Virus record (IMG/VR): IMGVR_UViG_3300028025_004234
Coordinates: 1 to 22,663 of that record
From: a virus
Reading direction: 5' to 3' (one strand)
Length of the DNA stretch: 22,663 nucleotides
The position numbers were made by a program, and so were the translations under genes. Within the stretch, counting starts at the first letter, position 1, and every line of letters starts with the position of its first letter. The notes under the pieces were generated by a model, which saw only the letters and a program-made list of their open reading frames with translations, was not told where the DNA came from and ran no database searches. Positions 20 through 6,938 of this stretch are shown in pieces.

Positions 20-583
20 ATGACAGAAGATACAACAGCAGTCGCAGAAGCACCAGTTGCAGAAGCAGAAGTAAGCGTATCAGCAGAGGTCACTCCAGAG
101 GCACAGCCAGTAGCAGAGAAGGCATTAGATGTAGAGACAGCAGTTGCAGAAGTTGCACCTGAAGTTGAAACATCTAAGTCTGACGAAGTTGCGGATGATA
201 GTGCTACATCTTCACCAGAAGATGCAACAGAGGCTCCAGCAGAAGAGGCATCAGAAGATGCTGAAAAGGCTGATCAAGTAATTATAAACGCAATTACAGA
301 GATTAAAGAGTCTGTTACTAATGCCTTTGGCGATCTAACAGCAACAATTAAGTCACTTAGTGACGAAGTTGCGAACATGAAGAAGTCTCTTGATGCAACA
401 ACAACTGATGTTGATCAAATTAAGGGAACCTTTAATGAAATTGGCAAGCGAGTAGATCTAGTAGAGCTAGACACCGCTTTCCGCAAGTCTGGCGATCTAG
501 GCGAGATCGTGCAGGAGCCAGTAATGGTTCAAAAATCCCTATGGGGCGGACGTTTCCTCAAATTCTCCGACCTATACAACTAA
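20..583 (+). CDS. Probable capsid scaffolding protein
   Basis: 187 residues. The start is an ATG eight bases after AAGGAGG (5-11), and a TAA at 1-3 may end the upstream gene. Residues 1-85 are a low-complexity acidic stretch of Ala, Glu, Val and Pro, probably disordered. Residues 86-150 have heptad-like spacing typical of a coiled coil. The C-terminus (about 165-187) turns basic and aromatic, with SLWGGRFL at 173-180. An acidic disordered/helical body with a short capsid-binding tail, placed directly before the major capsid gene, is the usual form of a siphophage scaffolding protein, which directs procapsid assembly and is then lost. Its arginine codons are all CGN, as in the capsid gene. It could instead be a scaffold part separated from a maturation protease, whose gene would lie just outside the window. 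The role is inferred from position and composition. Confidence 0.6.
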   Translation: MTEDTTAVAEAPVAEAEVSVSAEVTPEAQPVAEKALDVETAVAEVAPEVETSKSDEVADDSATSSPEDATEAPAEEASEDAEKADQVIINAITEIKESVTNAFGDLTATIKSLSDEVANMKKSLDATTTDVDQIKGTFNEIGKRVDLVELDTAFRKSGDLGEIVQEPVMVQKSLWGGRFLKFSDLYN

Positions 584-609: not shown

Positions 610-1731
610 ATGTCAGAAGATATCGTAAAGAACTATCCAGGTTCTCCAACAGTAGACCACGCTCACAGCGGTGATGGTGCATTTGCTTCAGGAAGCTCAG
701 CTAACGCTGCAATTCCAGTCGCAGGACGCACAGGAACTATGGGCAATATTGCTACAGCAAATATGGGAGTACTAGATGGTCCTAACGCAGTAAATCCATC
801 AGGTACACCTGGTGGTATCTTGCTACCTGAGCAAGCCCGTCGCTTCATTGATTATGTGTGGGATGCTACAGTTCTCGCTAAAGATGGACGTAGAGTTACA
901 ATGCGAGCAAATACAATGGAACTTGAAAAAGTTAACGTTGGTGAGCGTGTAATTCGTGCAGCAGCACAGGCAGACCCTACATTTACCAATGCAGGAGCAA
1001 CATTCTCAAAGGTTGAACTTACTACTAAGAAGATTCGTCTTGACTGGGAAGTATCAACAGAAGCACTTGAAGATAACCTAGAAGGTGGAGCTCTTGAAGA
1101 CCACCTTGTTCGTTTGATGACAACAGCATTTGCAAACGACATTGAAGATCTTGCGATCAACGGTGACGGTTCAACTGCTCCATTCCTTTCAATCATGGAT
1201 GGTTTCGTTAACAAGGTAACTTCAGGATCAGCAGCACACGAGTCATTCGTAACTGTTGCAAACAACGAGTGGACAACTCCTGTTCTACAGGACATTATCC
1301 TTGCAATGCCACGTAAGTATCGTGCAATCAAGAACAACCTAAAGTTCTATGCAGGTACAGACGCATTCCAGGGTATCGTCAAGAACAACGGTACACTTGC
1401 TGATGCAATTGCAGAGGCATTCTCTCCAATCGCAGCAGGAACACCTGCTAACCGTCAGAGCTATCTAGATGGTGCAGCACAGACATTCGGTGGAGCACGT
1501 ACAACACGTGTTCTTGGTGTTGAAGTTCAGGAAGTTCCATACTACCCTGCAGGATATGTAGATCTTACATTCCCTCAGAACCGTGTATGGGGATTCCAGC
1601 GTGACATCACTGTAAACCGTTTCTACCAACCAAAGAAGGATACAATTGAGTACACAGTATTCGTCCGCTTTGGTCTACAATGGGAAGAGCTTGATGCAGT
1701 TGCATTCGCAACAGCAGCAAACAACTCATAA
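610..1731 (+). CDS. Major capsid protein, HK97 fold
   Basis: 373 residues from ATG 610. The protein forms the icosahedral shell. Residues 1-70 are a Gly/Ala/Ser/Pro-rich arm. The body begins near LLPEQARRF (71-79) and continues through a charged helix and E-loop-like strand region rich in Val and Arg. The pattern of a 'PEQ..RFIDYVWD' helix, a repeated VGERVIRA segment and a C-terminal R-F-Y-x-P strand is that of capsid proteins of actinobacterial siphophages with the HK97 fold. Codon use is strongly biased: roughly 18 of 19 arginines are CGN, and AAC, AAG and TTC are preferred, as expected of the most abundant virion protein. An intrinsic terminator follows directly. The N-terminal arm has a separate paralogue at 1799-2044. 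Whether a maturation protease removes the arm cannot be seen here. Confidence 0.9.
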   Translation: MSEDIVKNYPGSPTVDHAHSGDGAFASGSSANAAIPVAGRTGTMGNIATANMGVLDGPNAVNPSGTPGGILLPEQARRFIDYVWDATVLAKDGRRVTMRANTMELEKVNVGERVIRAAAQADPTFTNAGATFSKVELTTKKIRLDWEVSTEALEDNLEGGALEDHLVRLMTTAFANDIEDLAINGDGSTAPFLSIMDGFVNKVTSGSAAHESFVTVANNEWTTPVLQDIILAMPRKYRAIKNNLKFYAGTDAFQGIVKNNGTLADAIAEAFSPIAAGTPANRQSYLDGAAQTFGGARTTRVLGVEVQEVPYYPAGYVDLTFPQNRVWGFQRDITVNRFYQPKKDTIEYTVFVRFGLQWEELDAVAFATAANNS

Positions 1732-1747
1732 TCATTGAAACACTTTA

Positions 1748-1788
1748 TAGGGAGGGTAGCGTAAAAACTACCCTCCTTATTTTCTTTT
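1748..1788 (+). terminator. Intrinsic terminator after the capsid gene
   Basis: A perfect 9-bp stem pairs GGAGGGTAG (1751-1759) with CTACCCTCC (1768-1776) across an 8-base loop. It extends outward by a G-T pair and two A/T pairs, and is followed by a T-rich run (1777-1788). It lies 17 bases after the capsid stop codon. Some read-through is likely needed for the next gene, since no good promoter was seen between the hairpin and 1799. Confidence 0.9.
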
Positions 1789-1798
1789 AGGAGCAAAT

Positions 1799-2044
1799 AT
1801 GTCTTATCCAGGAACAAATCCAGTTGATCATAATCACTTTGGAAATGGTGCAATCGCATCTTTAGGAACACCTGGAGTAATAATTATGGGACCAAGTGGA
1901 CTTCAAGTAAATACTTTAGGAAATCTTCCAGGCGCAAACATGGGAGATACAACAGGACCAAATGCAGTAAATCCTTCTGGAGTACCAAACGGTATTCGTT
2001 TACCATCACAAAATAATTTCGGTAAACCAAGAAGAAGACGCTAA
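1799..2044 (+). CDS. Stand-alone paralogue of the capsid protein N-terminal arm
   Basis: 81 residues; ATG 1799 follows AGGAG (1788-1792). The whole protein aligns with residues 9-73 of the major capsid protein. The shared blocks are YPG, VDH-x-H, G(D/N)GA(F/I)AS, ANMG, and a final 17-residue block with 14 identities (capsid 57-73, here 53-69), starting GPNAVNPSG. Homology stops where the capsid body starts; here the chain instead ends in a basic tail, GKPRRRR. There is therefore no HK97 fold, only the arm. It sits just after the capsid terminator, so less is probably made than of capsid protein. Possible roles are a minor capsid or decoration component, a competitor for whatever binds the capsid arm, or a DNA-contacting internal protein through the Arg tail. 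All are inference; the homology is directly visible. Confidence 0.85.
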   Translation: MSYPGTNPVDHNHFGNGAIASLGTPGVIIMGPSGLQVNTLGNLPGANMGDTTGPNAVNPSGVPNGIRLPSQNNFGKPRRRR

Positions 2045-2072: not shown

Positions 2073-2417
2073 ATGTCTATTACTGAAGAACTATCCAAGA
2101 AAACTGTTATGGAGATAAAGTCCTATGCCAAAAGAAATAATATTGATATTGTGGGTGCAAACAAAAAAACAGAGATTTTAGAAATTATTGCTAACTGGAC
2201 CCCAAGTGAAGAGCCAGTAGAACAAAAAATAGAAACAGTCCAAAAGGTAAATGAAAATGTTGCATTGTTTTCAGAAAGAAATATTTTTTGGAATGGCGTT
2301 GGCACTCTAGAAAAAGGATACAATATTGTGAAAAAGGAGGAATCGGAAAAATGGGCTACACACAGGTCAGTTCGCATTGCGACACCACAAGAAGTTGCCT
2401 CATACTACGGTAAATAA
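2073..2417 (+). CDS. Small head-region protein with a HeH/SAP-like N-terminal domain
   Basis: 114 residues; ATG 2073 is five bases after AGGAGG. Residues 6-41 form two short helices around a turn, with the pattern L-x-x-x-T-V-x-E-I-K-x-Y-A, then I-x-I-V-G-A-N-K-K-T-E-I-L-x-I-I. This is the layout of HeH/LEM, SAP or Rho N-terminal helix-extended-loop-helix domains, which often bind nucleic acid. A charged linker (42-62) leads to a C-terminal part (63-114) with small strands (FWNGVGTLEKGYNIV). Small proteins with such domains commonly occur between capsid and connector genes in actinophages, where their role is not settled. It has its own promoter and a strong ribosome site. A link to packaged DNA or to the head-tail vertex is inference. 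Confidence 0.65.
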   Translation: MSITEELSKKTVMEIKSYAKRNNIDIVGANKKTEILEIIANWTPSEEPVEQKIETVQKVNENVALFSERNIFWNGVGTLEKGYNIVKKEESEKWATHRSVRIATPQEVASYYGK

Positions 2418-5891: not shown

Positions 5892-6596
5892 ATGGCTACA
5901 CAAATATATCACAGAGAAAATGTTTATTTAATTGATGGAACAGAAATAGAGATAACTCCATTAAAAATTAAATACTTAAGAGATTTTATGATTGTTTTTA
6001 ATGAAATTGAAAACGTATCAGATGATGATGGTGCCATTGATATTTTATCAAAATGTGTGGGTATATGTATGAAACAATACTATCCATCAATATCAGACTC
6101 ATTTGAAGACAATATAGATTTACCAACAATATATAAGATTATTGATGTAGCAGCGGGAATAAAAATAAACAAGAAATCAGAAGAAACAGTTAAGGATCAA
6201 GCAACAAGCAGTGGTATGACATGGCAAGACTTAGACCTTGCAAAACTAGAGGCAGAAGTATTTATTTTGGGTATTTGGAAAGACTATAATGAACTAGAAC
6301 AGTCTCTATCAATGCCTGAGCTAATGGTTACATTATCTAGTAAAAGAGAGCTAGACTATGAAGAAAAGAAATTTCTTGCAGCAATTCAGGGTGTAGATTT
6401 AGAAAGCTCATCTGGATCTGACAAAGGACAAAAAGAGTGGGAAGATATGAAGGCTAGAGTCTTTAGCCAAGGAGCAACATCTGATAGTAATGATGTGTTG
6501 GCTCTTCAAGGACAAAATGCTCAAAAGGCAGGGTTTGGTATTAACATGGGACTTGATTACGAAAATTTGGTAGATCCAACACTCCTAAAAAATTGA
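5892..6596 (+). CDS. Tail assembly chaperone, long form (G and T parts in one frame)
   Basis: 234 residues. Residues 1-90 are homologous to the whole of the next gene (same DGTEI at 15-19, PLKI at 23-26, MKQY, and DLPT-I-YKI at 76-83). Residues about 108-170 add a helical part (WQDLDLAKLEAEVFILGIW, ELMVTLSSKRELDYEEKKFLAAIQG), which corresponds to the T extension that most siphophages reach only by a -1 ribosomal frameshift. Residues 171-234 are a low-complexity tail. This is therefore a GT-like protein encoded without frameshifting; such proteins hold the tape measure and recruit tube subunits. Its four arginines are all AGA, it lacks a ribosome site and probably starts a leaderless message: all signs of low expression, as expected of the minor long form. 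Confidence 0.75.
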   Translation: MATQIYHRENVYLIDGTEIEITPLKIKYLRDFMIVFNEIENVSDDDGAIDILSKCVGICMKQYYPSISDSFEDNIDLPTIYKIIDVAAGIKINKKSEETVKDQATSSGMTWQDLDLAKLEAEVFILGIWKDYNELEQSLSMPELMVTLSSKRELDYEEKKFLAAIQGVDLESSSGSDKGQKEWEDMKARVFSQGATSDSNDVLALQGQNAQKAGFGINMGLDYENLVDPTLLKN

Positions 6597-6638: not shown

Positions 6639-6938
6639 ATGGCAACGACAGTGTATGAGGCTCAAAAACTCACACTTATGGATGGTACAGAAATATCTGT
6701 TCGTCCTTTAAAAATCTCTCTTCTTCGTCCATTTATGGCAAAGTTTGAGGGTGTTGCAGCGGTGGCGGATGACAATGAAAAGTCAATGACTCTTCTTGTT
6801 GAGTGTGTTCAAATTGCAATGAAACAGTACAAACCAGAACTTGCAGATGACATTGAAAAGCTAGAAGAAGTTCTAGACTTGCCAACTGTCTACAAGATTG
6901 TAGAAGCAGCATCAGGTTCAACACTTGCTGGTGAGTAA
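6639..6938 (+). CDS. Tail assembly chaperone, short form (G-like)
   Basis: 99 residues; ATG 6639 with strong AGGAGG. Aligns along its whole length with residues 1-90 of the preceding long chaperone: DGTEI (15-19), PLKI (23-26), LLRPFM, C-x-x-I-x-MKQY and DLPTVYKI (80-87). It ends with SGSTLAGE where the long form continues. In lambda-type phages this short product is made in large excess over the frameshifted form and coats the tape measure during tail assembly. No T-like extension lies downstream: the 41 bases to the tape measure gene contain several stop codons. Both arginines are CGT and its promoter and ribosome site are strong, unlike its partner. It is clearly a gene-duplication product; which copy is older cannot be told. 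Confidence 0.8.
   Translation: MATTVYEAQKLTLMDGTEISVRPLKISLLRPFMAKFEGVAAVADDNEKSMTLLVECVQIAMKQYKPELADDIEKLEEVLDLPTVYKIVEAASGSTLAGE

Follow-up and report, generated by a model that had tools for sequence, protein, structure and literature searches.

Why would a phage encode, directly behind its major capsid protein (MCP) gene, a second gene whose product resembles the N-terminal arm of that protein and stops where the capsid fold begins? This question is raised by IMG/VR record IMGVR_UViG_3300028025_004234, of which the whole stretch analyzed (22,663 nucleotides) is hereafter called the window. The head-gene region of the window contains the following features:

20–583, plus strand: acidic scaffold-like protein, matching the C-terminal part of the head maturation protease family phrog_9427
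610–1731, plus strand: MCP, 373 aa, HK97 fold (PF05065; phrog_1623, 1e-74; AlphaFold2 and Foldseek)
610–834, plus strand: MCP residues 1–75 (N-terminal arm region), the origin or the twin of the standalone copy
1788–1792 (approximate), plus strand: AGGAG ribosome-binding site of the arm gene, from the sequence
1799–2044, plus strand: standalone capsid-arm gene, 81 aa (MSYPGTNPVDHNHFGNGAIASLG...GPNAVNPSGVPNGIRLPSQNNFGKPRRRR)

The standalone arm and its counterpart in the MCP

The arm gene begins 67 bases after the MCP stop codon with an ATG preceded by the AGGAG ribosome site. In a Smith–Waterman alignment, residues 2–71 of the arm protein matched residues 8–75 of the MCP with a score of 170, whereas shuffled arm sequences (n = 2000) scored 34 on average and 67 at most, and shuffled MCP arms (n = 2000) did not exceed 65. 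This agrees with the preliminary description, which had placed the match at MCP residues 9–73. Three blocks are common to the two arms, namely YPG..(D)HxH.GxGA.AS, LGN....NxG, and GPNAVNPSGxPxGIxLP; the last is identical at 14 of 17 positions, reproducing the count given earlier. These blocks are specific rather than generic, so the objection that the likeness might be a low-complexity motif fails. The claim that both copies keep D-H-x-H followed by G-x-G-A-x-A-S was correct for the two copies in the window, but the D is not retained in relatives. The standalone copies also have a conserved block of their own, GVIIMGPxGL, and a basic tail (3.9 K/R within the last 10 residues versus 1.2 elsewhere in the protein). 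In the protein of the window, G, N, and P together account for 35 of the 81 positions, and the first Lys or Arg does not occur before residue 67; ordinary trypsin-based proteomics would therefore probably miss this protein.

The MCP matched the Phage_capsid signature PF05065 of the HK97 fold (28.8 bits versus a cut-off of 24.2). We assigned its start to the ATG at 610 rather than the GTG at 601, because the latter would leave no spacing after AGGAGG. An AlphaFold2 model built from a 133-row alignment (mean pLDDT 68) was related by Foldseek, with probability 1.00, to the capsids of T5, DT57C, phiRSA1, P2/P4, and HK97, with E about 1e-15 for T5 and DT57C. Residues 1–53 and 59–71 had pLDDT below 50, that is, almost all of residues 1–71, and the first helix was predicted at residue 73. 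In the model, the arm is thus unstructured and the body has the HK97 fold, and the match between the two proteins ends at the start of the body, as had been proposed.

The closest cultured relatives of the MCP belong to Stanwilliamsviridae, a family of Streptomyces phages. In members such as Coruscant and Jay2Jay, the MCP bodies are alike (about 43–44% identity from residue 68 on), but the proteins begin MSDELIEKVIRTTEVAAGGGGLLNPEQ, are armless, and are not followed by a standalone arm. The arm is thus a lineage-specific addition, approximately 50 residues long, that lies between the body and the extreme N-terminus, and in the MCP-body tree all armless rows fall on one side of a branch (100*). 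To judge from MCP kinship alone, the host may be actinobacterial. Three armless-type MCPs (L389, L390, and L391) carry their own Gly/Ser/Thr-rich N-terminal extension of 40–46 residues unlike the arm, which indicates that N-terminal additions to this MCP arose more than once.

Occurrence among relatives

Relatives were gathered by an IMG/VR scan with the arm protein as the query. A standalone arm gene was located 3′ of the MCP gene, on the same strand, in 219 fetched loci; some contigs were fetched repeatedly, and the distinct MCP/arm pairs number 80. The preliminary description had suggested asking whether relatives keep the gene beside the capsid gene, and they do, directly 3′ of it. The gap between the two genes is typically 28–82 bases, apart from one truncated join at −3 (L155/L225, two fetches) and one contig fetched three times (L008/L089/L298) that carries a second MCP stretch. 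In L008 (3497–5696), this second stretch shares 969 bases with the first at 100% identity and is probably an assembly artefact, or else a very recent tandem duplication. In L073 (5866–6996), the MCP gene is interrupted by a short gap and reads as two ORFs of 212 and 149 aa, owing to either a sequencing frameshift or an insertion. Shine–Dalgarno-like sites precede the arm gene in 77 of 79 relatives.

All 14 large contigs (60–112 kb) contained exactly two arms, one within the MCP and one standalone, and no third arm was found elsewhere in them. Arm-bearing MCPs without a standalone gene occurred in 77 loci, a count that includes a few (L322, L330, and L390 among them) with a long N-terminus unlike the arm. 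In those of the loci without the gene that were examined, no remnants of it were found, and the next gene follows the MCP directly. Conversely, a standalone arm gene was found beside an armless MCP in none of the 80 loci.

Relatives of the arm were detected neither by tblastn against INPHARED nor in GTDB contigs, Pfam, PHROGs, or PDB sequences, and no family of detached MCP arms was described in the mainly open-access literature searched. The arm gene is real, conserved, and unusual, and we propose a descriptive class for its product, the MCP N-arm paralogue: a protein collinear with the MCP arm, encoded by a separate adjoining gene, and conserved.

Selection and history

Median dN/dS of the standalone arms in four groups was 0.12, 0.19, 0.22, and 0.42, compared with 0.14–0.28 for MCP arms and 0.07–0.13 for MCP bodies; the arm gene and the MCP arm are under purifying selection of similar strength. 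In the arm tree, a single branch (100/99; 100% of bootstrap trees) separates all standalone arms from all MCP arms, which indicates a single split rather than repeated copying. As this tree has no outgroup, it does not tell duplication from the MCP apart from fusion to the MCP.

The presence of the arm gene requires about nine changes on the MCP tree, of which starred branches force three, implying losses or transfers of the gene. Loci L013 and L016 encode the same MCP protein with an MCP dS of 0.008, whereas dS between their arm genes is 0.335. In the pairs L013/L016 and L034/L035, either near-identical MCPs have clearly differing arm genes or the MCP arms differ and the arm gene is the same. 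The arm gene thus appears to have been exchanged on its own between near-identical MCPs, and such swapping means that the pairing of MCP and arm is not strict. The frame offset of the arm gene relative to the MCP is evenly spread (26/26/27), which rules out a read-through or frameshift product fused to the MCP.

Transcriptional setting

Downstream of the MCP gene, the window contains three further features:

1747–1780, plus strand: terminator-like hairpin between the MCP and arm genes (scan, covariation, z −3.9)
2048–2056 (approximate), plus strand: extended −10 element TGGTATAAT of the next operon (conservation in 66 loci)
2073–2417, plus strand: next gene, 114 aa, with a weak HeH/endonuclease VII C-terminal-like match

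The hairpin is strong (z = −3.9 in the window) and was recognized as terminator-like by a scan, and its stem covaries across relatives, with 6 of 9 pairs changed on both sides. Some relatives have only a poor T run behind the stem; the structure may therefore be either a leaky terminator or one that protects an mRNA end. The motif TGNTATAAT was present 3′ of the arm gene in all 66 distinct loci and between the MCP and arm genes in none of the 66. Of 31 loci without the arm gene, 30 have TGNTATAAT immediately behind the MCP hairpin, and in loci of this kind the gene at 2073–2417 directly follows the MCP. The very strongly conserved extended −10 element TCTGNTATAAT, which precedes the gene behind the arm or MCP gene, is probably a late-operon promoter of this phage group. 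Taken with the hairpin, the placement of TGNTATAAT indicates that the arm gene fills the gap between the end of one transcription unit and the start of the next. Lying between hairpin and promoter, the gene is probably expressed by read-through only and, in qualitative terms, at a low level.

Proposed function and alternatives

We give an even chance to the reading that the product is a low-copy, disordered capsid accessory protein, a free copy of the MCP arm able to dock at the sites that the arms of the MCP itself use. The two roles put forward in the preliminary description, a minor virion protein at arm-binding sites and a decoy that tunes assembly, are both compatible with these results. 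The protein would be flexible in solution and become ordered once lying on the shell, with contacts like those of the MCP arm made through YPG..HxH.GxGA, LGN...NxG, and GPNAVNPSGTPxGIxLP. Its copies would be fewer than those of the MCP, as transcription would proceed mainly by read-through of the MCP hairpin, and it might fill a subset of sites where the MCP arm is missing or unable to reach, such as the portal vertex or strained capsomer seams. The basic tail might touch packaged DNA or the acidic shell surface, and the GVIIMGPxGL block of the standalone copies could serve a different partner. The many relatives without the gene count against an accessory role; as these close relatives manage without it, the expected effect would concern how stable or faithfully made the capsid is rather than whether the shell is built. 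More specifically, and only tentatively, tailed phages may have kept the detached arm as a peptide under dosage control that fits into arm sites of the shell, the leakiness of the MCP terminator setting its expression. If so, a detached part of the capsid's own building block would serve to reinforce or edit it.

As a rule, the accessory proteins of a capsid have no relationship to its MCP, and a paralogue of the MCP retains the complete fold. Both kinds of protein are already known; the function of a detached arm is what we infer here. T4 gp24 is a full-length capsid-protein homologue used at special capsid sites. Like the arm protein, gp24 and SaPIbov5 Ccm are paralogues or homologues of an MCP, but they retain the HK97 body (for Ccm, PMC8569155), and only the arm is present here. 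A capsid paralogue of this HK97-fold kind was rejected, as the sequence of the arm protein does not reach the first helix of the body.

Among accessory proteins, gp4 of Patience and Adjutor is a small (102 or 54 aa) hexamer-bridging protein of actinobacteriophage HK97-fold capsids, and Patience gp4, a random coil when free, becomes ordered as it threads between the subunits of a hexamer, where it displaces the N-termini of the MCP (PMC10635136). The arm protein is likewise small, and it may be disordered when free, to judge from its composition and the low pLDDT of the homologous MCP arm. It differs in being an MCP-arm paralogue, whereas no derivation from an MCP arm is reported for gp4 (PMC10635136). 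PRD1 P30 offers another precedent for a disordered capsid-bound protein (PMC7602432). The N-termini of YSD1_16 and lambda gpD extend the sheet made up of the E-loop and N-arm of the MCP, which is the kind of contact proposed for the arm protein; however, these proteins have a folded beta-tulip domain and trimerise, whereas the arm protein consists of arm sequence only (PMC7385642). We rejected a beta-tulip decoration protein of the gpD kind, as the 81 residues align fully to the arm apart from the tail and have no Pfam or PHROG match. The arm profile matched no PDB chain up to E = 10, so that no sequence homology to a solved capsid accessory protein, gp4 included, was found. A scaffolding protein was likewise rejected: the arm protein is Gly/Asn/Pro-rich, basic-tailed, and encoded downstream of the MCP, and a scaffold-like gene is already present at 20–583.

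The alternative that survives best, although we consider it unlikely, is an assembly modulator outside the virion: the free arm and the MCP arms would compete to bind the scaffold, the protease, or neighboring subunits, and the free arm would thereby tune the rate, size, or fidelity of procapsid formation and then leave. It draws on the same arm homology and probable low expression, is compatible with the optional presence of the gene, and has a parallel in SaPIbov5 Ccm, which is reported to be a capsid-protein homologue that redirects capsid assembly (PMC8569155). Relatives with armless MCPs, however, assemble without any arm.

It is improbable that a small protein came first and that the MCP arm arose by its fusion to an armless MCP, leaving the standalone protein with a separate present function (e.g., in another virion part) and a merely historical likeness. 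The unrootable arm tree with its two sister clades, the position of armless MCPs as the outgroup of the MCP tree, and the private conserved block of the standalone copies would suit this order of events, but no standalone arm lies beside an armless MCP (0 of 80 loci) or elsewhere in the 14 large contigs.

We regard as very doubtful that the protein acts specifically as a portal-vertex filler, with 5–10 copies in the arm sites emptied where the portal replaces a penton and the basic tail pointing toward the DNA; probable low expression and a basic tail suit so few copies, and arm-site mimicry is shared with the accessory-protein reading, but arm-bearing phages without the gene exist (77 loci). 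Decay of a functionless duplicate, the concern of the preliminary description, is compatible with the patchy presence of the gene but is refuted on conservation and hardly tenable, given intact ORFs with no stops, no decayed copies found, purifying selection (dN/dS about 0.12–0.42), ribosome sites in 77 of 79 relatives, and clean absences with no remnants.

Should the accessory-protein reading hold, this conserved arm-only family of single origin implies that the arm can act as a transferable docking module, and the protein would offer a naturally occurring competitor peptide with which to probe the contacts of the arm. It would also represent an accessory layer added in abundant uncultured aquatic phages and unnamed by standard databases.

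The HxH motif and minor observations

HxH was present in both copies or in neither in all 79 usable pairs (69 both and 10 neither; one truncated copy is left out). The absences are confined to essentially one clade, so the joint loss amounts to approximately one event. This joint retention and loss is suggestive of a common partner for both arms. Finer residue pairing of the two arms within the nearest group was not independent of ancestry, and strict residue co-evolution was not demonstrable with too few independent pairs. Metal binding by the arm, one of the roles suggested earlier, is weakened by the clade that lacks HxH in either copy and still keeps the pair.

Some standalone arms (L204, L207, L214, L223, L235, L276, and relatives) have acquired a pair of Cys residues, each at a fixed position (GCIA... 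and LGCIP). Such Cys-bearing arms occur in 10 of the 80 distinct pairs, alongside HxH, and any Cys was found in 1 of 265 MCP arms; a metal or disulfide site in the detached copy only is possible. A second partial duplication in the window lies between the tail genes and the tape measure gene, where 5892–6596 and 6639–6938 encode adjacent paralogues (234 and 99 aa; local score 208 over approximately 90 residues) that are probably tail-assembly chaperones.
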